A DNA stretch of 64,000 nucleotides from Micromonospora sp. WMMD1128. Lineage in GTDB: Bacteria > Actinomycetota > Actinomycetes > Mycobacteriales > Micromonosporaceae. Position numbers and translations under genes: made by a program. This document shows positions 8,490 to 29,789 of this stretch, one piece after another (within the stretch, counting starts at the first letter, position 1; every line of letters starts with the position of its first letter). The notes under the pieces were generated by a model. That model was not told the origin of the DNA, made no database searches, and was given only the letters and a program-made list of their open reading frames with translations. The DNA is taken from contig NZ_CP114902.1 of assembly GCF_027497235.1 (NCBI RefSeq), forward strand, positions 6,164,001 to 6,228,000. The letters are read 5' to 3'.

Positions 8490-11400
8490 TCAACAGCGCA
8501 CCGGGACCCGGCCGACCACGCGCTCGGCAGTGTCGGGCAGCAGGTCGCTCCCGCCGTCGATCTCCAGCGCCAGCAGGCCCTGGTCCAGGCCAACGAGCAG
8601 CACGCCGTCCACCCTGCAACAGGTGAGCGCCGGGTGGTAGACGGGGATGGTGTGCACCGCCCGTTCGGTGGACGGATCCCAGATCCGCACCGTCCGGTCC
8701 CGGCTGGTAGAGGCGAGCAGCTCCCGGCCACCGACGCGCACCAGGCTCAACCCGGTGACGGCAGCCGTGTGGCCGGTGAACACGCCCACAGGCTCGCCCC
8801 ACTCGGCGTCCCACAGGCGGATCGTGTGATCGGCGCTGGCCGACGCCAGCATCCGGCGACCCGCCACGACGAGGCCGCAGAGCGCGGTGACCGCGTCCTG
8901 GTGTCCCTGCCGGGTCCACACCGGCGTGTCACCGCCGCCCCACAGCATCACCGTGCCGCTCTTGTCGGCCGAGGCAAGCGCCTCCACGCTGGGCCACCGG
9001 ACCGTCGCGAGGGCGGTCACCCAGGCACGGGTGACGTGCCCGAGCAGGACCGCCCGCACGGCGCCGCTCTGCGGGTGCCACAGCCGGATGGCCTGGTCGT
9101 CGCCGGCCGACGCGACGAGCGTCTCACCGCCGATGACGATCGGGCAGACCGCCGCCACCGGGGCGTGGTGCTCGTTCATCTCCCTCACCGGGACGCTGTG
9201 CCGCACACTCCAGGTCCCGACCGTGTTGTCGTCCTGCGCGGCGACGAGCAGCGGCTCCTCGACGTCGTCGACCGCGCACATCGCGTTGACGGGTCCTCCG
9301 GGAGTCGGGATCTCCTCCAGCCGCTCGCCCGTGGCGGCGTCCCAGATCCGCACCCGGCCGTCGGCACCGCCGGACGCGACCAGGCCCGGCCGCTCGTCAG
9401 GGACCGCGCAGAGGCTGTGCACGGGCCCGAGCCGGTCCCGCTCGGCGACCGTGTCGGGTCGGCCGCCGGCCGGGTCCCACAGCCGCACCGTGCCGTCGTC
9501 ACCCGCCGTCGCCAGCATCCGGTCCTTCGCCGTACGCAGCTCGCATACCGCGCGGATCCAGCTCGCGTGTCCCCGCAGGCTCGGCCGGCTGGTCCAGGTC
9601 GGCACGTCCCAGACCCGGATGAGCCCGTCCTCGCCCGTCGACACGAGCAGACAGCCCTCGTCAACCTCGACCGTGCAGAGATCCGTGACCGGCCCGCCGG
9701 TGGCGAGGACGTGGACGCATTCGCCGCTCTGCGGGTCCCATAGCCGGACCGTGCCGTCGTAGCCGGCCGAGGCGAGCAACGTGCCGCCGGGCGCACGAAC
9801 GGCGTAGAGGGTGGTCACCCAGCCGACGTGCCCGGTGAGGGTCAGCGTCGGGCGGGTGCCGCTCGTCGGCTCCCAGACCCGGACGACGCCGTCGAAACCG
9901 GTGGAGGCGAGCAGGTGCCGACCGCCCGCCGGGACGTACGTCACGGCGGTCACCCAGCCCGAGTGCCCGGCCAACGCGTGGCGCTGCGTCCCGGTCACCG
10001 GGTCCCAGATCCGTACCGTCCGATCGTCGCCGGCCGAGGCGAGCAGGTCACCGTCCGGCAGCGGGATGACGCAGATGTTGCGGACCCAGTCGTCGTGCCC
10101 GCGCAGTTCGTGCCGGCGCTGACCGGTTCGCGGGTCCCACAGGCCGACGGTCCCGTCGTGGCTGGCGGTGGCGATCAGCGTCTCGCCGCCGCCGGCACGG
10201 ACGGCGCACAGCCCGCGGATCGTGTCGTTGTGACAGTTGAAGACCCCCACGGCCTGGTTGGTCAACGGGTCCCAGAGCCGCACCGTGCCGTCGTCACCGG
10301 CGGAGACCAGCAACCACCGATCGTCCAGCTCGATGGCCGCCACGTCGTAGACGGCCTGCGAGTGCCCGTCCAGCACGCTGCGCTCCTGCCGGGGCGGGGT
10401 GTGCGCCCAGCGCGCGCGGTACGGCGCGATGTCCGCCTCGATCCCACTGCCCAGCCCGTCGAGCCGGTCGACCACCGAGAAGAGGGCGGCGCGCTCGGCC
10501 GGCGCCGCCGCGACCGCGAGCGGCGTGCGGTGCAGCAGCCGCACCCGTGATCGGGACCGCGGTTCCAGCGGTCTCTCCAGGTCGATGACCGAGAGCAGCC
10601 GCTCCAGGTGCGCGTGCAGGAGGTAGTCCTCGTCGGCGAGGAGCCGTTCCACGAGCCCGGCGCGGGAGGCGTGCTGGGGCAGGGAGCGCCGCAGGTAGTC
10701 GGGCACCGCTGCCCATCCCACCTCGGCCGCCAGGGCTGTCCAGGCGGCAACCAGCCGTCGCTGGTCGTCCCGGCGGGTCGCCCCGGCCAGCAACGCGTCG
10801 TTGAGGGCCTGGTGGAACAGGCGGTACGCGGGCTGACTGCCGCCGCCGGTCTCGACCAGGAAGTTCGCCGCCGACGTGCGGGCGAACGCGAGGAGTTCGT
10901 CCTCGGTGACCGTGCCGCCGAGTGCGATCACCGCGATCCGCCAGAGCGAGAGCGGCAGGCCCGGCGCCTCGGCGTACGCCAGGGCGGTGAGCGCGAGCCG
11001 GGCGGATGCTGAGCCGGCGGCCGGCAGTCCGGCCAGGTACGAGTCGAGCGCATGGGCCACGGTCGCGGTGAACGACACCGAGGCCGGGTCGACCGGCTCG
11101 ATGTCGCGCAGCGCGTGTGCCCGGGCGACGAGACCGGCCACCAGGAAGTTTCCCTTCGCCAGCTCGGCGATGCGGCGGGCCAGCGGGGCAGCCGCCGTCG
11201 AGTCGGTGTATGGGTTGCCCGGCCGTTCCGCGCCGAGCAGCCGCAGGGTCGCCAGGGCGTAGTTCACCAGATCGGCCTCGGCGAAGTATTCCGGTGTGTC
11301 CAGATCCACCAGCTCGACCGGGCCACCGAAGCAGGAGATCAGGTCACCCCGGTCGTCGCCACGCCGGGTGCCGACGACCACCCGGACGCCGTACCGGCCG

Positions 11401-12593
11401 CACTCCCGGGCCAGCGGCAGCAGGACGTCGTCGATGACCTGCCGCGCCTGACCCGGGTCGGCCGTCTCGTCCAGCGCGTCGATGACCAGCGCGAAACGAG
11501 CCGGACGACGCGCCAGCCGCTCCCGCACCGCCGGCATCAGGTCGGCCGGCGCGCTGGGCAGGTCGACGGCGGCGGCCCGGGCGATCTCGATCGCCACCTC
11601 GAGCGCGGTCTTGCCCTTGGCGTGCACGGCGCAGGACACCGAGCCGACCGTGGCCCGCACCGCGGTGTCGCCGCCCGGCAGGCTGGCCTGGATCTGCTGA
11701 TCGGCAGTGGTCACCACGCGGCCCAGGACGGCGGACTTGCCGACCCCGGGCGAGCCCGTGACGATCAGCGGCCGGATGGCGGGCGCCTCCCCGTCGATGA
11801 AGTCGACGATCCGCCGGAGCGCGGCCGTTCGGCCCCGGAACCGTGCGCCGCCCTCGGTGTCCACGGCGACACCCCGCGCCCGGGGCAGCCAGTGCCGGCC
11901 GGCCTCGCCATCGGTGCTCAACGTCCACCCCCAGGCCGAGAGGGCGGCGTCGTCGGCGTCCTCGACCCGCCAGGCCGACAACGCGCCCAACGTCATCGCC
12001 GGCACCTGTTCGTCGGCGTGGCTCAGGGTGACCGCCTGGCCCTTACCCTTGCCGTCGGCCGTGACGACCACGCCGACCACCGCCTGATACTCCGGGGACC
12101 ACACGGCGCCCCCGCTGAACCCCTTGCTGAGCGGCCCGGCGGCGCCGCTGTCGATGGTGACGTGGCCGTACCCGCCGGCTTCGACGACGGAACCGGTCGC
12201 CTGGAGGCCGCCGACCACTCCGGCCGGGAAGCCGTACGCCCAGAAGGGGCGGTCGAGCAGCGGCTTGGCGGCGAGACAGCGCAGCCGCGCCGGGGAGACG
12301 GTCGCCGGCACCGGCTCGACGAGTTCGAGCACGACCAGATCGACGTACGCCTCCCGCATACCGTCGTGCCGGCACTGCCGGACCTTGCGCCGATCGAAGT
12401 AGGCGACCTTGGGCGCGCGCGGAAAGGCGACCGTGAGATCGGGACGGAGGGTGCCATCGGCGGTGAACGCCACATGGTGGCAGGTGAGCACCAGGTTGGT
12501 GGCGATGACGATGCCGGTGCCGAGCGCCGTGTGCGGGTCCGCCTCACGGTGCAGCGCGACCGCCCACGAGCTTTCGTCCGGGGCCGTTGTCAC
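8490..12593 (-). CDS. Trypsin-like protease / NACHT NTPase / WD40 fusion protein
   Basis: A 1367-residue multidomain protein with no signal peptide, so probably cytoplasmic. Residues 10-200 are a trypsin-like protease with all three catalytic positions visible: H40 in TCHHV, D85 in YVDLVVLEL and S160 in GFSGG. Residues 250-650 are a STAND/NACHT NTPase with Walker A GSPGVGKS (280-287) and Walker B IDALDE (371-376). From about 725 to the end are 14 WD40-like units (13 clear, the last degenerate), enough for two seven-bladed propellers. Proteins of this build are predicted conflict sensors: the propeller senses, the NTPase oligomerises and the protease executes. It starts at a GTG 15 bp after the stop of a Trypco1-like gene and forms an operon with it. 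Confidence 0.85.
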   Translation of the reverse strand: MTTAPDESSWAVALHREADPHTALGTGIVIATNLVLTCHHVAFTADGTLRPDLTVAFPRAPKVAYFDRRKVRQCRHDGMREAYVDLVVLELVEPVPATVSPARLRCLAAKPLLDRPFWAYGFPAGVVGGLQATGSVVEAGGYGHVTIDSGAAGPLSKGFSGGAVWSPEYQAVVGVVVTADGKGKGQAVTLSHADEQVPAMTLGALSAWRVEDADDAALSAWGWTLSTDGEAGRHWLPRARGVAVDTEGGARFRGRTAALRRIVDFIDGEAPAIRPLIVTGSPGVGKSAVLGRVVTTADQQIQASLPGGDTAVRATVGSVSCAVHAKGKTALEVAIEIARAAAVDLPSAPADLMPAVRERLARRPARFALVIDALDETADPGQARQVIDDVLLPLARECGRYGVRVVVGTRRGDDRGDLISCFGGPVELVDLDTPEYFAEADLVNYALATLRLLGAERPGNPYTDSTAAAPLARRIAELAKGNFLVAGLVARAHALRDIEPVDPASVSFTATVAHALDSYLAGLPAAGSASARLALTALAYAEAPGLPLSLWRIAVIALGGTVTEDELLAFARTSAANFLVETGGGSQPAYRLFHQALNDALLAGATRRDDQRRLVAAWTALAAEVGWAAVPDYLRRSLPQHASRAGLVERLLADEDYLLHAHLERLLSVIDLERPLEPRSRSRVRLLHRTPLAVAAAPAERAALFSVVDRLDGLGSGIEADIAPYRARWAHTPPRQERSVLDGHSQAVYDVAAIELDDRWLLVSAGDDGTVRLWDPLTNQAVGVFNCHNDTIRGLCAVRAGGGETLIATASHDGTVGLWDPRTGQRRHELRGHDDWVRNICVIPLPDGDLLASAGDDRTVRIWDPVTGTQRHALAGHSGWVTAVTYVPAGGRHLLASTGFDGVVRVWEPTSGTRPTLTLTGHVGWVTTLYAVRAPGGTLLASAGYDGTVRLWDPQSGECVHVLATGGPVTDLCTVEVDEGCLLVSTGEDGLIRVWDVPTWTSRPSLRGHASWIRAVCELRTAKDRMLATAGDDGTVRLWDPAGGRPDTVAERDRLGPVHSLCAVPDERPGLVASGGADGRVRIWDAATGERLEEIPTPGGPVNAMCAVDDVEEPLLVAAQDDNTVGTWSVRHSVPVREMNEHHAPVAAVCPIVIGGETLVASAGDDQAIRLWHPQSGAVRAVLLGHVTRAWVTALATVRWPSVEALASADKSGTVMLWGGGDTPVWTRQGHQDAVTALCGLVVAGRRMLASASADHTIRLWDAEWGEPVGVFTGHTAAVTGLSLVRVGGRELLASTSRDRTVRIWDPSTERAVHTIPVYHPALTCCRVDGVLLVGLDQGLLALEIDGGSDLLPDTAERVVGRVPVRC

Positions 12594-12608
12594 GGGCCGA
12601 CCCGTCCG

Positions 12609-12938
12609 TCAGCGCCGTGGGCCGGCACCGCGATCGGTGGGGCCGTCCGGCTGCCAGGCGAGCGTGACCTCGAAGTTCGCCTCTCCGGTCGCCTTCGCCA
12701 CCACCCAGCTCGCCGTGCCGGTGGCCTTGATCCCGAAGCGCACCTCCACCGCGTCGGGAGAGACGGTCTTGACCTGTTCCAGCAGTTCCCGGGCGGCGGC
12801 CACGGCCGGTGCCGCGGACTCGCGCACCCAACCGGCGATGTCGCCGAGGCCGGCGGGCTGGAAGCCGGGCGTCGGCTCGACTTCGATCAGGGCAACCGTT
12901 TCGTCGTCGACCTGGTAGCGGACCACCTCAGACTGCAC
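12609..12938 (-). CDS. Trypsin-co-occurring domain 1 (Trypco1, CU044_2847-like) protein
   Basis: A 109-residue protein. It has a beta-rich start (VVRYQVDDETVALIEVEP) and a conserved C-terminal stretch (PDAVEVRFGIKATG, then GEANFEVTLAW) that I recognise as the small family found next to trypsin-domain genes in actinobacterial conflict systems. The GTG at 12938 has an ideal GGAGGT upstream; an ATG at 13022 is in frame but lacks a ribosome site. Its role is unknown. Physical association with, or regulation of, the protease of the downstream NACHT-WD40 protein is inferred from recurrent gene pairing. Confidence 0.75.
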   Translation of the reverse strand: MQSEVVRYQVDDETVALIEVEPTPGFQPAGLGDIAGWVRESAAPAVAAARELLEQVKTVSPDAVEVRFGIKATGTASWVVAKATGEANFEVTLAWQPDGPTDRGAGPRR

Positions 12939-13313
12939 GGTCACCTCCGTGACGTATTTCTGGAGAACAGGCAGGAGGGTTCGCGGCGGAGCAGAACTCC
13001 GGGCCTCTCGCCGGTCTGCCATGCTGCCCGCTGTCCTTGTCACTTTGCAATGGTCGGATCGGCGAATCGCGCCGAAGCGGCCGAACAGGCGTTTCAGGCG
13101 GGCCATCCACGCAGGACCGTTGAAGATCCACTGCGTTGCCCTGTCGGCTTTCGTCAGCGAGATCGGTGACCTTGCGCGAGCCGGACGGCGTCGGCAGAAT
13201 CGGCCCGTGCGCCGGGGCGATCCCCGTTGCTCACCTCGATCATGGCCACCCCTTCCGAGCCTTCGATCACACCGTCGACGCGGTGGGAGCTCGTGCCGCA
13301 GAGGAGCATCCGC
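12939..13313. other. 375-bp divergent spacer between the two NTPase modules
   Basis: The spacer separates the Trypco1/protease-NACHT-WD40 operon from the winged-helix/ATPase operon. It must hold both promoters. I see no convincing -35/-10 pair, tRNA, repeat or coding region. Short in-frame extensions of both neighbours run into it but have no ribosome sites. Confidence 0.5.
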
Positions 13314-13973
13314 ATGCCGGAAAAGGAACTGACCCTCGTCGACCGGTGCATTCTTGTCACGCTGATGGTGAAGGCGGCACCTTTGCCGCAGACGTACTTC
13401 AAGAACGTCGCCGGAATCAGCCTGAAGCCGGAGCACCGCAGCCGACTTAAATCACTCGGTCTGATCGAGGTCACGGAGAAGCCGAGGATTGTTCTGGCGC
13501 TCACCGACAAGGGATGGGATCGCGCCACCGAGGAGTTGGGCGCGGAGCCGCCGAAGGGCGCCGGTACCGCCGGCGGCACGCTCTACGTCGCGCTCGACTT
13601 CCTGCGCCGGCTGATCGACCACTCCGGGACCCGCGCCGACGACCTGTTCCGGATGCAGATCAACCGGGACGAGGTCGTCGCGCCGCCGGTGGCGTCGCCG
13701 GCATCCGCGGCTGTCGACGCGGTGACGCTGATCCGGCAGGCGTACCACGAGCTGGCCGCCAAGCCCGGTGACTACGTCATGCTGGCCGACCTTCGCGAGG
13801 CCCTCACCGATCTGCCCCGCCACGAGTTCGACGTCGCGCTGGTGACGCTCAACCGGGAGCGCGGCGTGCACCTGGTGCCCGAATCCAACCAGAAGGTGCT
13901 CAAGCCGCAGGAGCGGGCGGCGGCGGTGACCATCGGCAACCAGGACAAGCATCTGGTCGCCATCTCGTCATGA
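13314..13973 (+). CDS. Winged-helix protein paired with AAA/HerA ATPase, unknown function
   Basis: A 219-residue protein. The N-terminal part (ELTLVDRCILVTLMVKAA to KPRIVLALTDKGW) looks like a winged helix with a typical L-T-DKG wing. The C-terminal part (FDVALVTLNRERGVHLV, PESNQKVLKPQERAAAV, then GNQDKHLVAI) looks like a second winged-helix-type domain that recurs beside defence-type ATPases. I chose the ATG at 13314 because GAGGAG sits 7 nt upstream; the frame is open back to 13227. Its stop overlaps the start of the next gene as ATGA, so the two proteins are probably made in stoichiometric amounts. It could load the ATPase onto DNA or sense a trigger. Confidence 0.65.
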   Translation: MPEKELTLVDRCILVTLMVKAAPLPQTYFKNVAGISLKPEHRSRLKSLGLIEVTEKPRIVLALTDKGWDRATEELGAEPPKGAGTAGGTLYVALDFLRRLIDHSGTRADDLFRMQINRDEVVAPPVASPASAAVDAVTLIRQAYHELAAKPGDYVMLADLREALTDLPRHEFDVALVTLNRERGVHLVPESNQKVLKPQERAAAVTIGNQDKHLVAISS

Positions 13974-16900
13974 TCGGTGACGAGCAACGCCGGGCCCTGG
14001 CGGCGCTGAGGTTCAACTGGGCCCCGACCCCGGACGATGTCTGGAAGCCCACGCCGTTCCATGTGGCGGGTCTGCATCACGACGTCGTCACGACGGTGCT
14101 GGACAGCTTCGTGGAGGCCCAGGCCAGCACCGGCTCCAGTCCGGTCGGCGTGGCCATCCTCGGCCAACGCGGCACCGGCAAGACCCACCTCATCGGCACG
14201 GTCCGCCAGCAAGTGCAGGGACGTGGCGGCTTCTTCTTCCTGGTCGAGCTGCTCGAAGCCCGGACGTTCTGGCAACGCACCGCGATCTCGATGCTGGAGG
14301 GTCTGGTCCGGCCGATGCCGGACGAGACGACCCAGCTGCGGGCGTTCCTGCGTCGGCTGGCCGACGAGGTGGGTGCGCCCCGGACGGTACGGCGCGCGGT
14401 CGCCGGTGAGACCGAACTCAGCCGGTCGACGCTCGACGCGTTCGTCGACTTGATCCGCAAGAAGGACCGCCAGATCGGCACGGAGTGCCAGGACACCGCG
14501 CGGGCCCTGGTGCTCTACGCGGCCGAACAGTCCGCTTTGCAGGACATCGGCTACGACTTTCTGTCCTCGATGGACGAGGAGGAACCCGGCCAACGGGCCG
14601 GGTGGGGCCTGCGGCGCAATCGACGGGCGCCCCAGGAGGTGGTCCGGGACACCTCCCGGCTGCTCGCCGTCGTCGGCCCGACCGTGATCGCGGTGGACCA
14701 GATCGACCTGATGATCGCCCAATCCGTGAAGGCCACCAACCAGGAGGTCCGGGGCGAGGCGGACTGGCAGACCTCGCTCCTGCTCGAGCAGGTCGCCAGC
14801 GGTCTGATGGCGCTGCGTGAGACCACCCGGCGGACGCTGTCCGTCGTCTCGTGCCTGCCACAGACGTGGCGCAGCATCCAGCAGCAGGCGACGGACACCG
14901 TCCAGGACCGGTTCCGGGAGGCCGCCCCGCTCAAGGAGATCCCCTCCGTCGAGGTGGGCCGCGAACTGGTCGAGAAACGGTTCGCGGTGCTCTTCGAGGG
15001 CATCGGTTTCACCCCGCCCCACCCCACCTGGCCGGTACACCCGGACGCGTTCCGGGAGGTCGTCGGCTTCACCCCCCGTGAGCTGCTGCGGCGGATCGAC
15101 ACACACGTCCGGGCCTGCCTGGCCGACGGTGAGGCTCGGCAACTGCGGCACCTGCTGCACACGACAGATGACCGGCTCGTCGACGACATCGCGCCGACCC
15201 CGGTCACCGGGTCGCCGCAGGAGAGCCGGACGACCGGATTCAGCAAGATCGACGCCAGGTACGCGGAGCTGGTCGCCGCCGCCGACACCGCCTCCGCCGG
15301 GTCACCGAAGTCGGAGGACGTCCGCGTCCCCCGACTGCTCGAAGCCGGCCTGACCGCGTGGATCGCTGCGCAGGGTCCGGCCGTCGACGCGTTCAGCCTC
15401 GACCCGATCCCCGCCGGGACCAAGCCGGCGCTGCACGCCCGGCTGCGGCACAGCCTGAGCGAGGACAACGAGGACGAGGAGCACTGGTCGTTCCGGGCCA
15501 TCTCCGCGCCACACCACATCGCCGCGCTCAACCGGATCCGCAACGCGATCACGGCCGCCGGGCTCACCGAGGGCGTCGCGAAGCGCAAACTCTTCCTGCT
15601 GCGCAGCGCAAACTGGTCGACCGGCGCCCGGACCCGAGAGGTGCTGGACGCCTTCGAGCGGGCCGGCGGGCGGACGCTCGCCCTGCCCGCGCCGGACGTC
15701 GCCCGGATGGCCGCGCTCGAACAGCTCATCCAGGACCACGGGCGGGAGACGTTGCGGCCCTGGTTCGCCGACCGCCGGCCGGCCTCCGACATCACCTGCC
15801 TGCGGGAGGCGTTGGGCGACTGGCCGGGCGGGACAGCAGCCGGCCGGGCCGAGGGGCGGCCGTCGGAGGCGCCGGACCGCGAGCCAGTCGGGACGCCGCC
15901 GCCGGTCACCACCGCGCCACGCTCCGCCGGCCCCGAACCGGCGCGGCCGGCGATCGCCCTCCTGCCGCCGATGGCCGGCATCGATCCGGAGCGGCTGGGC
16001 GTCGGCACGGTCGCCGGGCGGGCCGACCCGGTCGGCATCGACCTCGAAGCACTGCGCCGGCACACCGTCATCTTCGCCGGCTCCGGTTCCGGCAAGACCG
16101 TCCTGATCCGCCGCCTGGTGGAGGAGTGCGCCCTGCGCGGTGTGTCGGCCATCGTGCTCGACCCCAACAACGACCTGGCCCGGCTCGGCGAGGCCTGGCC
16201 TGCACCACCGCCGGGCTGGGGCCCCGACGACGCCCGCCAGGCCGCGGAATACCTGGCCGGCACCGACGTGGTCATTTGGACGCCGGGACGACAGGCCGGC
16301 CGACCGTTGACCTTCCAGCCGCTGCCGGTCTTCGCCGACGTGCTCGACGACCCGGACGGGTTCACCTCGGCGGTCAACGCCGCCGTCGCCACGCTCGCTC
16401 CCCACGCCCGGGTGGACGGCGGCACGGACAAAGCCCGGCTCGGTCGCGCCGTGCTGCGCGAGGCGCTGATCGGCTACGCCCGCAGCGGCGCGAACGACCT
16501 GCGTGAGTTCACCGACGTCCTCAACGACCTCCCGGACGGCGTCAGCCAGCTCGACAGCGCGCCCAAGCTGGCGGCCGGTATGGCACAGCTACTCAAGGCG
16601 GCCCTGATCAACGATCCACTCCTGGGTGGCGTCGGCACTCCGATCGACCCGGGTGAATTGCTCACGCCGCCACCTGGTCGGCGCGCCCGGGTCTCGGTGA
16701 TCAACCTCGCCGGGCTGACCGAGGAACATCAGCGGCAGAGCTTTGTCAACCAGTTGCAGCTCGCCCTGTTCACCTGGATCAAGCGCCATCCGGCCGGGGA
16801 TCGGCCACTCGGTGGGCTCTTCGTCATGGACGAGGCGCAGACGCTGGCCCCGTCCGGTGCGGTGACGGCCTGCACCCAGAGCACGCTGGCACTCACCTCG

Positions 16901-17224
16901 CAGGCCCGCAAGTACGGGCTGGGGCTGGTCTTCGCCACCCAGGCGCCGAAGGCGTTGCACAACCAGATCCCCGGCAACGCCGCCACGCAGTTCTTCGGCC
17001 TGCTCACGGTGCCCGTGCAGATCGAGGCGGCCCGCGACGTGGCCAGGGCGAAGGGCACCGATGTTCCCGACATCGGGAAGCTGCGGACCGGCCAGTTCTA
17101 CGCCGCGGTGGAGGGCGCTCAGTTCGTCAAGATGCAGGCCCCCATGTGCTTGAGCCACCACCCTCGCAGCCCGCTCACGGTGGAGGAGATCGTCCGGCGA
17201 GCGGCCGTTCCGCCCACCGCCTGA
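13970..17224 (+). CDS. Fused AAA ATPase and HerA/FtsK-type DNA translocase
   Basis: A 1084-residue protein with two separate P-loop ATPase units. The first has Walker A GQRGTGKT (65-72) and Walker B IAVDQID (241-247), of ORC/STAND-like AAA character. A middle segment (about 450-620) contains KRKLFLLRSANWSTGARTRE and a Gly-rich turn that may be a degenerate nuclease-like or structural domain, but no catalytic residues are evident. A Pro/Ala-rich linker (620-665) leads to a HerA/FtsK-type unit with Walker A GSGSGKT (705-711), the LDPNND strand, Walker B FVMDEAQ (953-959) and the sensor ATQAP (990-994). HerA-type ATPases translocate DNA and are common in defence systems. No partner nuclease is adjacent. 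Confidence 0.8.
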   Translation: MIGDEQRRALAALRFNWAPTPDDVWKPTPFHVAGLHHDVVTTVLDSFVEAQASTGSSPVGVAILGQRGTGKTHLIGTVRQQVQGRGGFFFLVELLEARTFWQRTAISMLEGLVRPMPDETTQLRAFLRRLADEVGAPRTVRRAVAGETELSRSTLDAFVDLIRKKDRQIGTECQDTARALVLYAAEQSALQDIGYDFLSSMDEEEPGQRAGWGLRRNRRAPQEVVRDTSRLLAVVGPTVIAVDQIDLMIAQSVKATNQEVRGEADWQTSLLLEQVASGLMALRETTRRTLSVVSCLPQTWRSIQQQATDTVQDRFREAAPLKEIPSVEVGRELVEKRFAVLFEGIGFTPPHPTWPVHPDAFREVVGFTPRELLRRIDTHVRACLADGEARQLRHLLHTTDDRLVDDIAPTPVTGSPQESRTTGFSKIDARYAELVAAADTASAGSPKSEDVRVPRLLEAGLTAWIAAQGPAVDAFSLDPIPAGTKPALHARLRHSLSEDNEDEEHWSFRAISAPHHIAALNRIRNAITAAGLTEGVAKRKLFLLRSANWSTGARTREVLDAFERAGGRTLALPAPDVARMAALEQLIQDHGRETLRPWFADRRPASDITCLREALGDWPGGTAAGRAEGRPSEAPDREPVGTPPPVTTAPRSAGPEPARPAIALLPPMAGIDPERLGVGTVAGRADPVGIDLEALRRHTVIFAGSGSGKTVLIRRLVEECALRGVSAIVLDPNNDLARLGEAWPAPPPGWGPDDARQAAEYLAGTDVVIWTPGRQAGRPLTFQPLPVFADVLDDPDGFTSAVNAAVATLAPHARVDGGTDKARLGRAVLREALIGYARSGANDLREFTDVLNDLPDGVSQLDSAPKLAAGMAQLLKAALINDPLLGGVGTPIDPGELLTPPPGRRARVSVINLAGLTEEHQRQSFVNQLQLALFTWIKRHPAGDRPLGGLFVMDEAQTLAPSGAVTACTQSTLALTSQARKYGLGLVFATQAPKALHNQIPGNAATQFFGLLTVPVQIEAARDVARAKGTDVPDIGKLRTGQFYAAVEGAQFVKMQAPMCLSHHPRSPLTVEEIVRRAAVPPTA

Positions 17225-21258: not shown

Positions 21259-21827
21259 GCCGGCTCCCCCGTTCGGACGCCTGCGCTTGCATCCTGCAAC
21301 ACGCAGCGTGACCGGGCACTGATCGCCGTGTTGCGGATGGCGCGGAAAGGGGCGTTCCGGCGGCCGGTTCGGGCGGGACGGGTCGGGTGCGCCCGGCCGG
21401 TGGAACGGATCGGACGACCCGGATGGACCCCACCCATACCGGTGGGCTCGGACCGGGCCGCCGGGTGCGGGCGGAGGGGTACGGGCGGGCACACGCCTGC
21501 GCTCGGCCGGGCCGATGGCGGCCTACTCGTCACCGTCCGGACATCCACCGGCCGCCACCACCCGTCTTCACTCACCGTGTTCACGTGAATTGCCTCTGTT
21601 GCATCGGCGCACGTCAGCCTATGCTCGCCCCTTGGGTACGACGCAACCCCCGATCAATTGGCGTCGGAGGCCGACCGGAGACATCAGTTCCACATTCCCG
21701 ACAGATCAGCACAGGCAAATGCAAGCGGTGGCGGCCGAGGCCCGGCCGGGCAGATCCGGGCGCGCTTCCGCATGCCCGGAGCGTGTCGACACGACCGTGC
21801 CGGGCCGGCACCGAGGAGGGCTCGGCG
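21259..21827. other. 569-bp divergent spacer upstream of the tad operon
   Basis: I find no convincing gene in this stretch. It contains a lower-GC segment (about 21575-21730) with a possible promoter, TTGCAT near 21598 and TATGCT near 21619, pointing into the tad operon. I looked for a c-di-GMP riboswitch and did not find the conserved core. Confidence 0.45.
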
Positions 21828-22394
21828 TTGCGCACATGGCAATCCCGTCGATGGGAAAGCTGCCTGCTCAGCCTGGCGCTGCTGACCGGCGCGGCCGGGT
21901 GCGGCACCGAGCCCGAGGTGGCCGCCCGCCCGCTGACCGGCGACGCCCCCGCACCGGCCGTCCATTCCGCCGCCGAGGAGAAGGCGGCCGAAAAATCGGC
22001 ACTCGCCGCCTATTCCGGCTATCTCGCCGCGTCCCGGGCGGCAAGCGCACGCAGCGATCCCGGCCACCCCGCACTGGCACGCTTTCTGGCCGACCCGCTG
22101 CTGACCCAGGTTCGGTTGGCAATTCGTGACGCGAAGGAGCACGGCGCGATGCGTACCGGAAAACTGGTTTCCGACCCCACCGTCGTCTCGGTCGACCTGA
22201 CCGCCCCGCTGCCCACCGTCGAGATCCAGGACTGCCTGGACTCGACCGGCTACCGGCTCGTCTACGCCAAGGACCGCAAGACGGTGCCCGGCACCCGCGG
22301 CGGGCGCTACCTGGCCACCGCCACCGCGGCCCGCTATCCGGACGGCCGCTGGCTGGTCAAGACCGGTGCCGCGCACCGGGACCAGCCGTGCTGA
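21828..22394 (+). CDS. Lipoprotein at head of tad operon
   Basis: A 188-residue predicted lipoprotein. The N-terminus (RRWESCLLSLALLTGAAGC) is a lipoprotein signal with lipobox AAGC. The mature part resembles secreted NTF2-like proteins found in actinobacterial tad loci but has no catalytic motif. I chose the TTG at 21828 because GAGGAGGG lies 7 nt upstream; the frame is open to 21387 without a ribosome site. It overlaps the next gene by 7 nt. Confidence 0.65.
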   Translation: MRTWQSRRWESCLLSLALLTGAAGCGTEPEVAARPLTGDAPAPAVHSAAEEKAAEKSALAAYSGYLAASRAASARSDPGHPALARFLADPLLTQVRLAIRDAKEHGAMRTGKLVSDPTVVSVDLTAPLPTVEIQDCLDSTGYRLVYAKDRKTVPGTRGGRYLATATAARYPDGRWLVKTGAAHRDQPC

Positions 22395-23335
22395 CCTGGG
22401 GAGGCGAGGGCGTCCCGGCCCGCCGGGCCGGGACGCCCCGCCGGTGGTTCACCGCCGGCCTGGTCGCGCTGCTCACGCTTGCCGGCGCGCCCGCGCGGGC
22501 CGCCGACCCGGGCGGCTCCTGCACACCCGACCAGGTTGACTGCGACGTCTGGGACGACGACCCGCCGGTGCCGGGTGGCGGCGGGAACGACGGCGGAGGC
22601 GGCGGGAACGAGGGCGGAGGCGGCGGCAACGACGGCGGCACCGCCAAGTGCCAGTGGGAGAGCCAGGTCGTCAAGTGCTACGACGACATCCTCGGCTGGT
22701 TCAACAACGCCGACGGCTGCTACTACAAGCTTGCCTCTCCGCAGGATCCCGCTCCCGAGGGCCAGCAGTGGTATACGGCCAGTTGCAACGGCGGCCTCGG
22801 CAACCAGGTGAACGTCCTGCTCGCCGCCCCGCCGCCCGGCTTCGGCACGCCACCCGACCCGGAGGAGCTGGCCCGCCGCGCCCTGGCCTCGATCTCGCTG
22901 CTGCCCCCGCGGACGGCTGTCGCGCCCCGGCGCAGCAAGGGGCCCGGGCTGGTCGGCCTGCCGGTGTGGATGTGGGCCAGCCCCGGCAACTCCTACTTCG
23001 GGCCGCTGCACGCCTCGGCCTCGGAGCGGGGACTGACCGTGGAGATCACCGCGACGGTGAACCGGATCGTCTGGCACATGGCCGACGGCCTCGACGTCGA
23101 GTGCGACGGGCCGGGCACCCCCTACAAGGCGGACGGGCCACGGGCCGGGTCCGCCTCACCCGACTGCGGCCTGCCCAACGGCTACCCGAAGGCGGACACC
23201 TACCGGGTCTACGCCACCGCCTACTGGACGGTCGAGTGGTCGTCGAGTGGCGGCGAGAGCGGTGAGATCGCCCAGACCCGGACCAGCGGTGTGATCCCGG
23301 TGCAGATCAACGAACTTCAGGTGGTGACCCGATGA
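22388..23335 (+). CDS. Secreted protein with Gly/Asn-rich linker, tad operon
   Basis: A 315-residue exported protein. A signal peptide (RRWFTAGLVALLTLAGAPARA) is followed by a low-complexity linker of repeated GGGGNDGG and GGGGNEGG units, then a Cys-containing domain (CQWESQVVKCYDDILGW and CNGG) and a C-terminal beta-rich region. The start is a GTG overlapping the previous gene. It has no recognised catalytic motif. It sits inside the tad operon and probably acts at the cell surface in pilus assembly or adhesion. Confidence 0.7.
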   Translation: MLTWGGEGVPARRAGTPRRWFTAGLVALLTLAGAPARAADPGGSCTPDQVDCDVWDDDPPVPGGGGNDGGGGGNEGGGGGNDGGTAKCQWESQVVKCYDDILGWFNNADGCYYKLASPQDPAPEGQQWYTASCNGGLGNQVNVLLAAPPPGFGTPPDPEELARRALASISLLPPRTAVAPRRSKGPGLVGLPVWMWASPGNSYFGPLHASASERGLTVEITATVNRIVWHMADGLDVECDGPGTPYKADGPRAGSASPDCGLPNGYPKADTYRVYATAYWTVEWSSSGGESGEIAQTRTSGVIPVQINELQVVTR

Positions 23336-23994
23336 GCATGGTGGCGTCCCGGAACGGGACCCCGGTGGAGGCGCCGGTGGCGCCGCCCAAGGTGGTCCGG
23401 CAGCGACGGATCCGACCCGGCCTGCTCGGCCTGGCGATCCTGCTGATCGCGCTCGGCGGGCTGGGCGCCGCGTTCGCGGTCACCTCGGTGCGGTCCACCG
23501 GCACCTACCTGGCGGTGGCCCGCCCGGTCGAGGTGGGGCAGCAGATCACCGCCGACGACCTGGTGCCGGTCCAGCTCTCCGGCGGGCGCGAGCTGCGGCC
23601 GGTGCCCGCCGACCGGATGAAGGACCTGCTCGGCCTGCGGGCCGCCGTCCGGCTCACCCCCGGCACCCTGCTCACCACGACCCAGCTCACCGAAGCCCCC
23701 CTGCTCGGCCCCGGCCAGCAGCAGATCGCGCTGGGGTTGGCGTCCGACCAGGTGCCCGCCCGCAAACTGCACCCCGGTGACAAGGTGCTGCTGGTCAGCA
23801 CGCCGGACACCGGCACCAGCGGCGCCGAGGCGACCCGCGGCGGCACCCGGTTCGAGGCCACCGTGATCGACACCGCCGTGCCGGAGAGCAGCGACGTGGT
23901 GGTCTACCTGGCGCTGGCCGTCCGGGACGTGCCGGCGGTGGTGGTGCTGGCCGCGGACGACCGGGTCGCACTCGTGCTGGTCGAGGCGGCCTGA
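23332..23994 (+). CDS. cpaB: CpaB/RcpC-like SAF-domain pilus assembly protein
   Basis: A 220-residue membrane-anchored protein. One N-terminal helix (GLLGLAILLIALGGLGAAFAV) precedes a SAF domain (VARPVEVGQQITADDLVPV, then LTPGTLLTTTQL). CpaB/RcpC proteins are periplasmic or cell-wall components of Tad machines. The ATG overlaps the previous stop as ATGA. Its place before the CpaE and TadA homologues supports the call. Confidence 0.8.
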   Translation: MSMVASRNGTPVEAPVAPPKVVRQRRIRPGLLGLAILLIALGGLGAAFAVTSVRSTGTYLAVARPVEVGQQITADDLVPVQLSGGRELRPVPADRMKDLLGLRAAVRLTPGTLLTTTQLTEAPLLGPGQQQIALGLASDQVPARKLHPGDKVLLVSTPDTGTSGAEATRGGTRFEATVIDTAVPESSDVVVYLALAVRDVPAVVVLAADDRVALVLVEAA

Positions 23995-24827
23995 TGGCGA
24001 TCATCGCCCTGGTGTCGGCGAAGGGCTCGCCGGGCGTCACCACCACCGCGCTGGCCGCGGCGCTGAGCTGGCACCGCCGGCTCGTGCTGGCCGAGTGCGA
24101 CCCGGCGGGCGGCTCGATCCTCGCCGGCTACCTGGGCGGCACGCTCGACGGCCCGCGCGGCATCGGCGAACTTGCCGTCGGTGAGCTGCGCGACGGCAGC
24201 CTGGAGACCGCGTTCTGGTCGCAACTCGTCGACCTGGACGCGCCGCGCCGCGAACGGCTGCTCCTGCCCGGCGTGGTCGACCCGGCGCAGGCCGGCAGCG
24301 TGGTGCCGCTCTGGCAACGCTTCGCCGACTACTTCACCGGGCTGGACCGGGGCGTACCCCCGTACGACGTGCTCGTCGACTGTGGCCGGTTGGCGGTCGA
24401 CGGTCCACCGTGGCCGCTGCTGCGGGCCGCCGCGGTGGTGCTGCTCGCCACCCGCGCGCACCTGCCCGACCTCTCCGCCACCCGGTCCACCGTCCGGGCG
24501 ATCGAACGGGACCTCACCGAACACCGCGTCCCGCCCGGCAACCTGCGGCTGCTGGTGGTCGGCGACGGGCACGGCACCAGTGAGATCAGCAAGGCGCTGC
24601 GGCTGCCGGTGATCGCCCGGCTGCCACACGACCCGCGTACCGCCGAGGTGCTCGCGCACGGCGGCACCGTACGCGCCGGTCGGCCGCTCATGCGCGCGGC
24701 CGGCGCGCTCGAGGTGCCGGTCCGGGCGCTGCTGGACCGCCGTCGGGCCCGGCTGGCCTGGCCCGGTGCGACGTCCGCCCACGCGGTGAGCGCGCCGCTC
24801 GCGCCGGAGGTGCCAGGTGCGGTTTGA
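23994..24827 (+). CDS. cpaE: CpaE/TadZ-like ATPase with degenerate P-loop
   Basis: A 277-residue MinD/ParA-type protein that would localise the pilus machine. The deviant Walker A reads KGSPGVTTT: the first Lys is kept but the Lys that normally precedes Thr is Val, so ATP hydrolysis may be weak or absent, as reported for some TadZ proteins. DVLVDCGR corresponds to the Walker B strand. It starts 1 nt inside the cpaB stop and overlaps the tadA start. Confidence 0.8.
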   Translation: MAIIALVSAKGSPGVTTTALAAALSWHRRLVLAECDPAGGSILAGYLGGTLDGPRGIGELAVGELRDGSLETAFWSQLVDLDAPRRERLLLPGVVDPAQAGSVVPLWQRFADYFTGLDRGVPPYDVLVDCGRLAVDGPPWPLLRAAAVVLLATRAHLPDLSATRSTVRAIERDLTEHRVPPGNLRLLVVGDGHGTSEISKALRLPVIARLPHDPRTAEVLAHGGTVRAGRPLMRAAGALEVPVRALLDRRRARLAWPGATSAHAVSAPLAPEVPGAV

Positions 24828-26361
24828 GCCGGTCTCGCACGACCCGCGCGGGCAGCAACCCGGGGTCGTCTCCACGGTCCCGCCGCTGGCCCCGCCGAAC
24901 GGGCGGCACCACGTCGCCGGCCCGGCTTTGCCCGCCGCGCCACCCGCGCCACCGCCCCGCCCCCGGGTCGACTTCGCCGTGGTCCGCGAGCTGCGCCGGG
25001 AGTTGAGCGAGCGGCTCACCCACTGGCAGCGCGGGCGGGAGTTCGACGCCGACGCCGAGGAGACCGAGCGGGCCCGGCTGGCCGTCGCGGTGGTCTCCGC
25101 GTACGCCGACTCGGTGCGCCGGGCCGGCACGCCGATGCCCGCCGACGCGGAGCGGCTGCTGCTCGACCAGGTGACCGCCGAGCTGGTCGGGCTCGGTCGA
25201 CTCCAGACGCTGCTCGTCGACGAGACCATCGAGGAGGTGCACATCCTCGGCTGCGACCAGGTGCGCATCACCCGGCACGGCGGCGGCGTCGACTGGGCCG
25301 AGCCGATCGCCGACAGCGACGACGAGTTGGTGGAGATCCTCCAGGCCGCGGCCCGCCGGGCCGGCGCGACCGAACGGTCGCTCTCCACCTCCAAGCCCAC
25401 GCTCGACCTGCAACTGCCCGACGGCAGCCGGCTCGCCGCGGTCTTCCTGGTCAGCCACCGTCCCTACGCGGTGATCCGCAAGCACAACACGCTCGACGTG
25501 AGCCTGGAGGACATCGCCGGCGCGCGGCCCGACCTGGACGAGATGATCGACCCGCTGCTGCGCGACTTCCTCCGCGCGTCCATGCGGGCCGGGCTGAACA
25601 TCATGGTCGCCGGGCTGGCCGGAGCCGGGAAGACCACCGTCATCCGGGCGCTGATGGACGACATCCCGGCCGACGAGCCGTACGTGCTGCTGGAGGAGAG
25701 CCGGGAACTGCTGCCGGCCCGGCGCGGGCACAAGCACCGGGCGGTGATGAGCTTCGAGTCCCGGGAGGGGCACGGTGAGCGCGGCGCGGACGGGCGACCC
25801 GCGGGTGAGGTGAGCATCGCCGACCTGATCCCGGTGTCGCTGCGGATGGGCGTGCTGCGGATCATCGTCGGCGAGGTGCGGTCCCGGGAGATCGTGCCGA
25901 TGCTCCAGGCGATGACCACAAGCCGCGGGTCGATGTGCACCATCCACGCCCGTACCCCGGCCGGGGTGAGCGAACGGATCATCGAGCTGGCGCTGTCCCA
26001 CGGCCGGGAGATGACAGTCGACCAGGCCCGCCGGATGGCGGGCAACGCGCTCGACCTCATCGTCTACGTCACGGTCGAGGACGAGACCGCGATCGGCGGT
26101 CGCAAGCACCGCTTCGTCTCGCACGTCGAGGAGGTCATCGGCGTCGGCGAGGGCAACCGGATCACCACCACCACCGTCTTCGGCCCGGGGGCGGACGGCC
26201 GGGCGGTCCCCCGCCACCTGCCCGAACGGATCCGCGACCAACTGCTGCGCGTCGGCTACGACGCCCGGCTGCTCACCCGGTTCGTCGAGGCCGGCGTCGG
26301 CGCCTGGCGGCGGCCCCGCCACACCCGCCTCGGGCGGCGGCCGGGCGGGGGGCCGGCGTGA
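24817..26361 (+). CDS. tadA: TadA/CpaF secretion ATPase
   Basis: A 514-residue type II/IV secretion ATPase that powers pilus assembly. Walker A is GLAGAGKTT, the Asp box is VLLEESREL, Walker B is LRIIVGEVRSREI and the His box is GSMCTIHA. A Pro/Ala-rich N-terminus of about 50 residues precedes the CpaF N-domain. It starts at a GTG inside the cpaE gene. Confidence 0.92.
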   Translation: MRFEPVSHDPRGQQPGVVSTVPPLAPPNGRHHVAGPALPAAPPAPPPRPRVDFAVVRELRRELSERLTHWQRGREFDADAEETERARLAVAVVSAYADSVRRAGTPMPADAERLLLDQVTAELVGLGRLQTLLVDETIEEVHILGCDQVRITRHGGGVDWAEPIADSDDELVEILQAAARRAGATERSLSTSKPTLDLQLPDGSRLAAVFLVSHRPYAVIRKHNTLDVSLEDIAGARPDLDEMIDPLLRDFLRASMRAGLNIMVAGLAGAGKTTVIRALMDDIPADEPYVLLEESRELLPARRGHKHRAVMSFESREGHGERGADGRPAGEVSIADLIPVSLRMGVLRIIVGEVRSREIVPMLQAMTTSRGSMCTIHARTPAGVSERIIELALSHGREMTVDQARRMAGNALDLIVYVTVEDETAIGGRKHRFVSHVEEVIGVGEGNRITTTTVFGPGADGRAVPRHLPERIRDQLLRVGYDARLLTRFVEAGVGAWRRPRHTRLGRRPGGGPA

Positions 26362-27260
26362 CGCAGATCGAGCTGATCGCGCTGGTGTCCGGCGCCGCCT
26401 GTGTGGCCGGGCTGGTGCTCGCCGTGGTCGCGCTTGTCGGCACCCGCCGGCCGCCCAGGTCGACGCCGGGTGAGGCCGGGCCGGGCCTGAGCCGACTCTG
26501 GACCGGCTCCGGGGCCAGCCGCGCCGAGCGGCGACGCCACCAGCTCCTGCTCGGCGGGGCCGTCGCCGCCGGGGCACTGGCATTCCTGATCACCGGCTTG
26601 CCGGTGGTGGGCCTGCTGGTGGCGCTCGCGGTGCCCGGGGTGCCGTGGCTGTTCGCCGTCGGCCGGGCCGAGCAGCGGGCCATCGCCCGGGTCGAGGCGG
26701 TCGGCGAGTGGACCCGGCGACTCAAGGACGTCTCCGCCACCGGGCAGGGACTCCAACAGGCCATCGTCGGCACCATCACCACCGCGCCGGAGGAGATCCA
26801 GGAGGAGGTACGCACGCTCGCCGCCCGCCTCCAGGCCGGCTGGCTGGCGAAGTCCGCGCTGCTCGCGTTCGCCGACGAGATCGCCGACCCGGTCGCCGAC
26901 CAGGTGGTGGCCGCGCTGATCCTGCACCTGACCGACCGGGGCGAGCGCCTCGGTGACGTGCTCGGCTCGATCGCCGGCGCGGCCTCCGCCGAGGTGGCCA
27001 CCCGGCGCGAGGTCGAGGCCAAGCGGACCCAACCCCGGTTCGCGGTCCGCTTCCTCACCGGGATGACCCTGGCGACGCTCGCGTACGGGCTGGTGAACAA
27101 CGACTACATCCGTCCCTACGGGACCTTGACCGGGCAGCTCGTGATGGCGGTGCTCGGCGCGGCCTTCATCGGGCTGCTGGTCTGGGTGCGGTCGATGAGC
27201 CAGCCGCCGCGCCCGGCGCGTTTCCTGCCGGCCCCGGACCCGGAAGAGGCGATCGCGTGA
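26358..27260 (+). CDS. tadB: TadB-like inner-membrane platform protein
   Basis: A 300-residue membrane protein with the type II secretion F-like domain (RLKDVSATGQGLQQAI, then LILHLTDRGERLGDVLG) flanked by hydrophobic helices at both ends. The GTG start overlaps the tadA stop as GTGA. With the TadC homologue it would form the platform on which TadA acts. Its stop codon lies at the edge of a dispersed repeat. Confidence 0.88.
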   Translation: MTQIELIALVSGAACVAGLVLAVVALVGTRRPPRSTPGEAGPGLSRLWTGSGASRAERRRHQLLLGGAVAAGALAFLITGLPVVGLLVALAVPGVPWLFAVGRAEQRAIARVEAVGEWTRRLKDVSATGQGLQQAIVGTITTAPEEIQEEVRTLAARLQAGWLAKSALLAFADEIADPVADQVVAALILHLTDRGERLGDVLGSIAGAASAEVATRREVEAKRTQPRFAVRFLTGMTLATLAYGLVNNDYIRPYGTLTGQLVMAVLGAAFIGLLVWVRSMSQPPRPARFLPAPDPEEAIA

Positions 27261-27292
27261 GCGCGAGGAGTGAGCTGGTCGCGAACGAAGGG
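27257..27292. repeat. Copy of a dispersed VSARSEL repeat between tadB and tadC
   Basis: About 36 bp beginning GTGAGCGCGAGGAGTGAGC and ending in GCGAACGAAGG match the duplicated repeat at 52510-52614 in reverse orientation, minus an internal segment. It fills most of the 40-bp gap between tadB and tadC and contributes the tadB stop. Confidence 0.7.
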
Positions 27293-27300
27293 CCGGTCCG

Positions 27301-28161
27301 ATGACCAACTGGCATCTCGTGGTGGCGGTGCTGGGCGGATGCGCGGTCGGGCTCGGTCTGTTCCTCGTGGTCCGCGAGGCGTTGCCGGCCACGCCGGCGC
27401 TCGGCCCGGCGCTGCGCCGGCTGCACCAGCCGCCCGGCCAGGCACCGGTGGCCGGTGCCGGGCCGGACTGGCTCGGCGGCTTCGCCCGCTGGCTGCGCCC
27501 GCCGACCCGGCAGCTCGCCCTGCTCGACCGGACCCCCGAGCAGTACGCCCTGTCGGTGCTGCTCTCCGCGCTCGTCGGGTTCGCCACCCCGGCGGTCGCC
27601 TCGGCCGTGCTCTTCCTGGGCGGGGTGTCCGTGCCGGTGGTCGTACCGCTGCTGGCCAGCCTCGGGATGGCGCTGCTCGCCGGTCTCGTCGCGCACCGCT
27701 CGGTGCTGACCAAGGCGGACGCCGCCCGGGACGAGTTCCGGCAGGCCGTCTGCACCTACCTCGACCTGGTGGCGTTGCAGCTCTCCGCCGCGCACGGCCC
27801 GGTGCAGTCGCTGGAACGCGCGGCGACGGTCTGCGACGGCTGGGTCTTCGACCGGATCCGGGAGGCGCTGCGGCTCGCCCAGCTCCAGATGCACTCGCCG
27901 TGGGACGAGTTGCAGGAGCTGGCCGACCGGATCGGCATCCCGGAGCTGGGCGACGTGGGCGCCATCATGCGGTCCTCCGGCAGTGAGGGCGCCCAGGTGC
28001 ACGAGACGTTGCGCGCCCGCGCCGACTCGCTGCGCGACCAGATCCGCACCGACAACCTGACCCGCGCCGAGGGGGTGACCAGCAAGTTGGACATTCCCGG
28101 CTCGCTGCTGGTCTTCGTCCTGCTCGGCTTCGCCGTCTATCCGTTCCTCGCCCGCCTGTGA
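27301..28161 (+). CDS. tadC: TadC-like inner-membrane platform protein
   Basis: A 286-residue membrane protein with the second F-type domain of Tad systems (EFRQAVCTYLDLVALQLSA, then EVHET-like QVHETLRARADSLR). Hydrophobic helices occur near the N-terminus, at residues 85-125 and at the C-terminus. It follows tadB after a 40-bp gap occupied by a dispersed repeat and has GGGCCGGTCCG before the ATG. Confidence 0.85.
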   Translation: MTNWHLVVAVLGGCAVGLGLFLVVREALPATPALGPALRRLHQPPGQAPVAGAGPDWLGGFARWLRPPTRQLALLDRTPEQYALSVLLSALVGFATPAVASAVLFLGGVSVPVVVPLLASLGMALLAGLVAHRSVLTKADAARDEFRQAVCTYLDLVALQLSAAHGPVQSLERAATVCDGWVFDRIREALRLAQLQMHSPWDELQELADRIGIPELGDVGAIMRSSGSEGAQVHETLRARADSLRDQIRTDNLTRAEGVTSKLDIPGSLLVFVLLGFAVYPFLARL

Positions 28162-28188
28162 CACCCACCCCCGATAAGGAGTACGGCC

Positions 28189-28404
28189 ATGCAACTCCTC
28201 AGCACCTACGTCTACGCGGCGGTCCGGAGCCGCGTCGCCGAGCTGCGACACCGCGCCGAGCGCGGCGACAGCCCGGTGCCGACCGCTGTCATCATCTTCG
28301 GCCTGGTCGCGGTGGCGGTCATCGTCACCGGAATCGCCCTGACCAAGGCGCGGGACTGGATGACCAACATTCCCGACCACAAGGACCCGGTGGAGACCAA
28401 GTGA
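28189..28404 (+). CDS. Flp-type pilin, lacking Glu at +5
   Basis: A 71-residue protein with a basic leader, a Gly in ERGDSPVPT and a hydrophobic helix (AVIIFGLVAVAVIVTGIAL). This is the size and build of a Flp pilin. The usual processing site G/xxxxE is not present: position +5 after the Gly is Pro. The ATG has AAGGAG upstream. It is the only Flp-sized gene in the operon and so the probable major pilin. Confidence 0.7.
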   Translation: MQLLSTYVYAAVRSRVAELRHRAERGDSPVPTAVIIFGLVAVAVIVTGIALTKARDWMTNIPDHKDPVETK

Positions 28405-28886
28405 CGTCCCGCCCCGCCCGTACGGTCCGGAACCGGCCGGCTCGCGCCGGCCGGTCCGGTCCGCGCGGCCCGGGGCGGATCGTCGCCGCCCTGCGCGCCC
28501 GCCTCGTTGCGGACGGGCGCGAGCGGGGCGCCAACCCGGTCGAGCTGGCCGTGATGATGCCGGCGATCCTGGTGCTGCTCTTCGGCTCGATCCAGGTCGC
28601 CGTCTGGTTCGTCGCCCGGTCCACCGCGCTCAACGCGGCCCAGACCGGGGTGAACGCGCAACGCTCGTACGACGCCGCGCCGGACGCCGGGCGGGCGCGG
28701 GCCACCGACTTCCTGCGCCGCTCCGGTGACTGGCTCGTCGGCTGGGACAAGACCGGCCCGACCTGCGTGGAGACCGCCACCGACGTCACCTGCACGGTGC
28801 GCGGACGGTCCCTGTCGGTCGTTCCCGGCGTCGACTTCGAGGTCGTGCAGACCGCGCACGGCCCCGCCGAACGCTGGACGGGGTGA
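28401..28886 (+). CDS. tadE: TadE-like pseudopilin
   Basis: A 161-residue minor pilin-like protein. After a basic N-terminus of about 45 residues it has GANPVELAVMMPAILVLLFG, a proper G/xxxxE prepilin site followed by the TadE hydrophobic helix. The start is a GTG overlapping the previous stop as GTGA. It would be processed by the A24 peptidase encoded at 20488. Confidence 0.85.
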   Translation: MTSRPARTVRNRPARAGRSGPRGPGRIVAALRARLVADGRERGANPVELAVMMPAILVLLFGSIQVAVWFVARSTALNAAQTGVNAQRSYDAAPDAGRARATDFLRRSGDWLVGWDKTGPTCVETATDVTCTVRGRSLSVVPGVDFEVVQTAHGPAERWTG

Positions 28887-29775: not shown

Positions 29776-29789
29776 GAAGGAAGGTCGCC

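Follow-up and report, generated by a model that had tools for sequence, protein, structure and literature searches.

In a 64,000-nucleotide stretch of the Micromonospora sp. WMMD1128 genome (contig NZ_CP114902.1, positions 6,164,001 to 6,228,000; hereafter the window, whose own numbering is used throughout), we analysed two overlapping genes that encode a small protein with two winged-helix units and a large protein joining an AAA+ ATPase, a probably inactive restriction-endonuclease-like domain and a HerA/FtsK-type motor. The order of the pair is conserved in all 88 loci compared, while the gene that stands beside it is exchanged: most relatives carry a DUF559-type nuclease gene, whereas the window carries, divergent to the pair, genes for a Trypco1 (trypsin-co-occurring domain 1) protein and a trypsin-NACHT-WD40 protein. 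The reading we favour, and consider fairly probable, is that of a modular anti-invader system in which a DNA-capturing core is combined with exchangeable effectors, here with a protease/NLR-like one.

Both open reading frames (ORFs) that an earlier reading of the letters alone (the sequence-only reading) had proposed were recovered on the + strand at its coordinates and overlap by ATGA in the sequence; the translationally coupled module of that reading is supported. The span of the small gene counts its stop codon, and its ORF could be extended upstream to 13227; the MPEK-type start is common to most aligned homologues. Genes were called anew in the 88 loci, which comprise 80 genome records, seven relatives from the genus and the window and include near-copies (87 different rows); the calling missed the small gene of L050, which was found later, and in L051 and L055 it returned a HerA gene that was too short. 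In every one of these loci, found via the large protein, the small gene lies 5' of the large gene (87 by profile, the last by tblastn), and in 74 of them the spacing between the two is -4 or -1, an arrangement that is therefore not due to chance. As the earlier reading had anticipated, the structure model of the small protein contains two winged helices, of which the first is backed by structure matches and shows structural likeness to the partition proteins TubR and AspA and to MarR. The small protein drew no match from Pfam, NCBIfam or PADLOC under the thresholds applied, and a PDB profile match to calmodulin (best E 2.2e-5) was set aside as chance, the model showing winged helices.

The large protein has AAA_22/AAA_16 matches inside residues 51-167 and a DUF87/HerA match from residue 678 onwards (Pfam). 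Two complete P-loop units of different type had been claimed for it; both units are present, but the first is not catalytically complete, since its Walker B motif reads D-Q-x-D in 88/88 aligned rows. By a cruder pattern, the DQ recurs in 119 of the 120 listed large-protein homologues and in 117 of the 120 listed relatives of a Methylobacterium protein described below. Replacement of Glu by Gln at this place in an AAA+ Walker B motif allows ATP binding and blocks hydrolysis. Because the Gln occupies every row, the N-terminal AAA+ domain, judged from its motifs, probably binds ATP but hydrolyses it poorly; its Walker A motif (GKTH) is conserved, as are the motifs that probably hold the arginine finger (DRF) and the sensor-2 arginine (TPR). 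The HerA domain has its GKT Walker A and MDEAQ Walker B motifs intact in 88/88 rows. The invariant substitution in the AAA+ domain yields a direct prediction as to which ATPase is the working one. Of the two Walker A lysines named earlier, K71 was correct, and the second is K709 in place of K710.

The middle segment, previously suspected to be a degenerate nuclease, is probably a restriction-endonuclease-like fold without the usual catalytic residues, as the fold prediction indicates with moderate support. The usual catalytic motif of restriction endonucleases is D...(D/E)xK, and no such set occurs among the conserved columns of this domain in the alignment of 88 rows. Behind it the model contains helices only, with no winged helix, and then a low-confidence linker up to the HerA domain. 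A PDB search with the whole 1084-amino-acid (aa) protein gave weak HerA/TrwB-type matches at best, and profile searches with the AAA+ part and the middle part gave no useful match.

Comparison of the 88 loci assigned a DUF559-type nuclease gene to 61, the trypsin protein to 14 (window included), a P-loop/repeat protein to seven, and a DUF4365, a TIR-type and an AIPR partner to one each; one locus (L102) has no recognisable partner, and two (L037, L098) are cut by contig ends. The nuclease gene lies directly 5' of the small gene in all 61 (55 by clustering and six that gene calling had missed and tblastn recovered, L040 being a fragment at a contig end), with a spacing to the pair of -29 to +46 in the 53 loci measured; Micromonospora chokoriensis has a locus of this type, and in an annotated Tsukamurella record the three genes overlap in a row. 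Two of the nuclease proteins were scanned and matched Pfam DUF559 at E 3e-9 and 6e-13. In the seven P-loop-type loci the partner place is taken by a protein of 570-720 aa with a GGSS.GKT motif and, weakly, repeats. At the single loci, DUF4365 is accompanied by a PDC-M02B gene, TIR/SEFIR genes stand together with one for PDC-M28B, and AIPR lies downstream; these rare partners are conflict-type genes too, supporting the anti-invader reading.

Nuclease and protease partners exclude each other: searched by tblastn in the DNA within the locus records, the DUF559-type nuclease is absent from the 14 trypsin-type and seven P-loop-type loci, and the trypsin protein is confined to the 14 loci of its own type, with no hit in any nuclease-type locus. 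On a tree of the HerA proteins the four partner labels need 14 changes, against a mean of 30.9 when shuffled, and three changes suffice once 12 rows labelled 'other', six of which are nuclease loci, are left out; the trypsin-type rows form a single clade of 15 rows together with one cut locus. With so few label changes and one trypsin clade, partners have indeed been exchanged, though rarely, and the swap to the protease may have happened once. The pair had been proposed to be a self-contained two-gene system without a partner. This is not supported: 61 of the 88 loci have the nuclease as partner, and the window has the two protease-type genes at 8490-12944, outside the coordinates that reading had considered. 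Two further arrangements were observed at individual loci. In two Paractinoplanes loci that are related to each other (L101:13142-13990; L103:13121-13987), the HerA gene is directly followed by a patatin-like phospholipase gene, possibly a further partner, and in an Amycolatopsis metagenome-assembled genome (L100:5787-9278) the pair is adjoined by SEFIR and TIR proteins together with a ParA-like ATPase that matches PDC-M28B and CATASP.

In the window, residues 1-640 of the 1367-aa partner match Trypsin_2 (E 7.4e-8, above the cut-off), NACHT (E 4.8e-6) and nSTAND1 (E 4e-6), and its WD40 match reaches E 2.9e-77 (Pfam). The trypsin-like domain carries the motifs TCHHV, DLVVLEL and GFSGG, and the protein also has the motif GSPGVGKS. 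Among the trypsin-type loci this gene is present in 14/14 and Trypco1 in 12/14, divergent to the pair, while the next most common neighbour family occurs in 3/14. The first 640 residues were also searched in 37 distinct, hand-picked Micromonospora genomes, 25 with the pair (by the large protein, or by the small protein alone) and 12 without it (including G005, with a weak small-protein match): the trypsin protein was found in 13 of the 37, all with the pair and adjoining it by coordinates, and in 0 of the 12 without. Trypco1 is missing in exactly two of the 14 loci (L032, L033), the same two in which the catalytic histidine motif of the peptidase is lost, a coincidence suggesting that an active peptidase is what Trypco1 works with. 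The divergent upstream region may play a regulatory role; no sigma-70-type site was found in 12945-13313. No match to the 55 DUF559-type nuclease proteins was found in window positions 1-30000, other restriction-endonuclease families not having been profile-searched window-wide.

The pair is conserved across phyla and accessory, with a patchy presence in genus and class. The large protein has 1148 homologues in total (best 120 listed), and at least 532 genome relatives were found, of which the 80 retained belong to Micromonosporaceae, Streptosporangiaceae, Nocardiaceae, Mycobacteriaceae, Pseudonocardiaceae, Kribbellaceae and unplaced actinobacteria; the nearest named relatives are Micromonospora species, and the window's genome (a 6.81-Mb single-contig chromosome) holds one full-length copy. 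Of 101 Micromonospora genomes, 48 contain the small protein (47 by strong matches, one by a weak match), as do 37 of the 296 genomes searched from the class (30 by strong matches). A housekeeping role is rejected on the strong matches in only 47/101 genomes of the genus, and the accessory nature is also seen in that the pair is not bound to one flank: the right-hand flanking gene pair occurs without an adjoining module in genomes G004, G006, G009, G010 and G011. A clean empty site was not found, as none of the 12 genomes searched had the left and right flanks side by side. Viral contigs and phage records yielded no relative, and a phage origin was accordingly discarded.

Three records of the plasmid collection match, one of them from Methylobacterium with the same three genes (a DUF559-like protein, a winged-helix protein and a large protein of 1084 aa that has DQID). 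The small protein encoded there matches the small-protein profile at E 2.9e-23, and the large one as query retrieves 274 relatives at E<=1e-30; most of the named ones among the 120 listed are from Methylobacterium or Methylorubrum, and Lichenibacterium and Rhodopseudomonas also occur. This alphaproteobacterial relative sits on a mobilizable megaplasmid of Methylobacterium aquaticum (L107:5237-10246), where the plasmid table lists no gene. In Rhodococcus sp. IEGM 1409 (L090:6680-13532) and Tsukamurella (L108:1879-15243) the three-gene module is flanked by rpsQ and rplN within the ribosomal gene cluster, accompanied in Tsukamurella by VapBC and a DEAD helicase; this interval is a possible insertion hotspot, with ribosomal genes at the locus only in L090 among the 88 loci.

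We propose that the core consists of the double winged-helix protein and the AAA+/inactive-nuclease/HerA protein, that DNA would be held by the winged helices together with the inactive nuclease-like domain, that the N-terminal AAA+ domain with its Glu-to-Gln Walker B motif would serve as an ATP-binding clamp or switch and not as a motor, and that the HerA ring would pump the captured DNA. Capture would then be relayed to the partner encoded beside the pair. In most relatives the DUF559-type nuclease would cut the captured DNA; in the window, where Trypco1 and the trypsin-NACHT-WD40 protein would be the partner, capture would instead release a protease, as an abortive or signalling response. 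Gene structure, domains, conservation, linkage and partner exchange are observed in the data, and DNA capture, partner activation and defence are inferred from them. More tentatively, the motor core could be a general sensor platform with interchangeable output that feeds a nuclease in most of the lineages compared and was rewired in Micromonosporaceae to an NLR-like trypsin-NACHT-WD40 protein. If so, mechanical DNA capture by a HerA ring would be turned into a proteolytic, possibly cell-death, signal, with an AAA+ domain naturally locked by its Walker B Gln as an ATP-bound clamp. The loci would also offer, under the favoured reading, a natural experiment in culturable Micromonospora, the same DNA motor having either a nuclease or a protease output.

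Neighbour counts, proposed by the sequence-only reading as a check for defence islands, gave no clear enrichment in 132 near-flank and 108 far-flank proteins from 71 of the 88 loci, with genes of >900 aa and cut genes dropped. The 25 listed of 48 PADLOC families in the near flanks are kinase-type profiles, each in four proteins; among the 25 listed of 142 Pfam families there, bDLD3 (bacterial Death-like domain) occurs in 3/132 proteins, a CRISPR-associated family in 2/132 and patatin in 2/132. In the far flanks (the fifth gene out), Cas1 and Cas4 profiles occur in two proteins (25 listed of 36 families).

Alternatively, the window's pair could be a machine for DNA processing or capture that works by itself or draws on a nuclease from another locus, the trypsin-NACHT-WD40 gene belonging to an independent conflict system that merely moves along with it. 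The trypsin genes are divergent to the pair and share no operon with it, the trypsin-type loci are a single clade, and trypsin/Trypco1 genes are known from conflict systems of other make-up, as far as the available part of PMC7159879 describes them. Against such independence, the trypsin protein was never met away from the pair in the 37 genomes, other neighbour families reach at most 3/14 trypsin-type loci, and the nuclease and trypsin partners are mutually exclusive within the locus records, so that we regard this explanation as unlikely. A plasmid- or chromosome-maintenance function or a conjugation-related motor, with a winged-helix binder and a HerA pump serving segregation or transfer, would agree with the matches of the motor domain to TrwB, VirB4 and TraD-like families, with the partition-protein likeness of the small protein's first unit (shared with MarR) and with the one relative on a mobilizable plasmid. 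It is quite improbable in view of the single copy in the window's genome, the lack of relaxase or integrase families among the 25 listed of 142 Pfam families of the nearest neighbours and the lack of relatives in the phage and viral collections; moreover, a segregation machine would presumably have no need to exchange nuclease, TIR-type, AIPR and protease partners. Least probable is a DNA-repair module that resects breaks like HerA-NurA with DUF559 in place of NurA: a HerA motor and a nuclease do share one gene row in 61/88 loci, but the module is patchy in one genus, the window pair is without an adjoining nuclease, and the nuclease can be replaced by a protease module.

Table 1. Coordinates, in window numbering, of the two-gene core, its motifs and the neighbouring protease-type genes.
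Feature	Position	Strand	Evidence
Small partner of 219 aa, with winged-helix units at residues 1-77 and about 130-217 and helices linking the two	13314..13973	+	
AAA+ / probably inactive restriction-endonuclease-like / HerA protein, 1084 aa	13970..17224	+	ORF, Pfam, 1148 homologues (best 120 listed)
Walker A of N-terminal AAA+ domain, residues 65-73, K71	14162..14188	+	Alignment motif count
Walker B of N-terminal AAA+ domain, D243-Q244-I245-D246, with Gln in place of the catalytic Glu	14696..14707	+	Q in 88/88 rows
Middle domain, residues 449-615, probable restriction-endonuclease-like fold, catalytic motif absent	15314..15814	+	
HerA/FtsK-type motor domain, residues 680-1078	16007..17203	+	Pfam DUF87 E 3.7e-12; PADLOC mad8 E 1.3e-18
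HerA Walker A (K709)	16073-16105	+	Motif counts in alignment
HerA Walker B MDEAQ	16814-16840	+	Motif counts in alignment
Divergent upstream region shared by Trypco1 and winged-helix gene	12945..13313	.	Layout kept in 14 trypsin-type loci
Trypco1 protein, about 111 aa	12609..12944	-	Pfam PF19493 E 1.7e-16; NCBIfam NF041216
Protein of 1367 aa with trypsin-like peptidase, NACHT/STAND-type NTPase and WD40 repeats, predicted effector/sensor	8490..12593	-	

Within the WD40 coding region, ARAGORN called a 97-base tRNA-Ala (9360-9456, - strand), probably falsely. Elsewhere in the window, a gene run at 21783-30842 on the + strand resembles by eye a Tad/Flp pilus cluster.

Turning to known systems, no match to an already named one was found, PADLOC, NCBIfam and Pfam giving domain-level HerA, mad8 and AAA matches only, and no description of this gene family was recognised in a literature search of open papers. 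HerA-NurA, HerA-Sir2 and HerA-DUF4297 are known pairs of a HerA-type motor with an effector. The pair resembles them in having a HerA-type motor with an adjoining effector gene and differs in the fused AAA+ and inactive restriction-endonuclease-like domains, scoring 13.2 bits with NCBIfam HerA_antiphage against a cut-off of 800. In line with what was noted earlier from the letters, no NurA, Sir2 or DUF4297 partner was seen: Pfam gave no such match for the scanned window proteins around the pair (for the WD40 protein, among the 25 listed of 45 families) or for those partner genes of relatives that were scanned. With MADS the pair shares mad8 as the best PADLOC profile of the HerA domain (E 1.3e-18), yet that match covers only residues 687-1006, and no other mad profile was matched by the four window proteins scanned.

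The closest likeness is to HerA-FtsK capture systems coupled to Orc/CDC6 AAA+ ATPases, for which a capture-and-channel model is described in the available part of PMC10853773, a model that also figures in the part of the BREX-related capture (BRC) work at hand (PMC12839542). Common to both designs are an AAA+ ATPase followed by an inactive restriction endonuclease, a HerA/FtsK motor, a winged-helix protein, patchiness and, in most relatives here (61/88), a nuclease gene; the separate multi-winged-helix protein reported for a subset of those systems has its counterpart in the double winged-helix protein. Here, in contrast, AAA+, inactive nuclease and HerA form one chain, the AAA+ Walker B reads D-Q and the relatives' nuclease is of the DUF559 type. 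In the published systems, in the sections available, the inactive domain comes after the AAA+ core and is itself followed by a C-terminal winged helix, and an active restriction endonuclease is encoded nearby, whereas in the window no nuclease was seen and Trypco1 and the trypsin-NACHT-WD40 protein stand instead. Among 25 members tested for an Orc/CDC6 relationship, AAA_16 was matched by 25 and AAA_22 by 22, and an ORC-CDC6-like family by one (best E 0.0019). Because the winged helix behind the inactive domain and a nuclease in the window are missing, we do not file the pair as a member, and the best reading by analogy is that it works like one. Calling it undescribed, as had been done, was thus too strong with respect to design, which closely follows these systems (PMC10853773, as available), even if no named system covers the pair.

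BRC, as characterised in the available part of PMC12839542, likewise combines a HerA/FtsK motor, an AAA+ ATPase and winged helices but is defined by PglZ, DUF6079, DUF4007 and others, none of which was matched in the window proteins scanned (Pfam). The protease side resembles the Trypco1/trypsin conflict systems of multicellular bacteria (PMC7159879, PMC10907252, parts available), in which Trypco1 adjoins a trypsin-like peptidase protein in vWA-MoxR-VMAP and STAND contexts, without mention of HerA motors in those parts; the window's protein has a NACHT/STAND NTPase and WD40 repeats in that layout and is tied to a HerA/AAA+ core. If the favoured reading is correct, a shared core with swappable partners would link HerA-type DNA-capture machines with protease/NTPase-repeat (NLR-like) systems, two groups that the compared portions of these papers treat apart.

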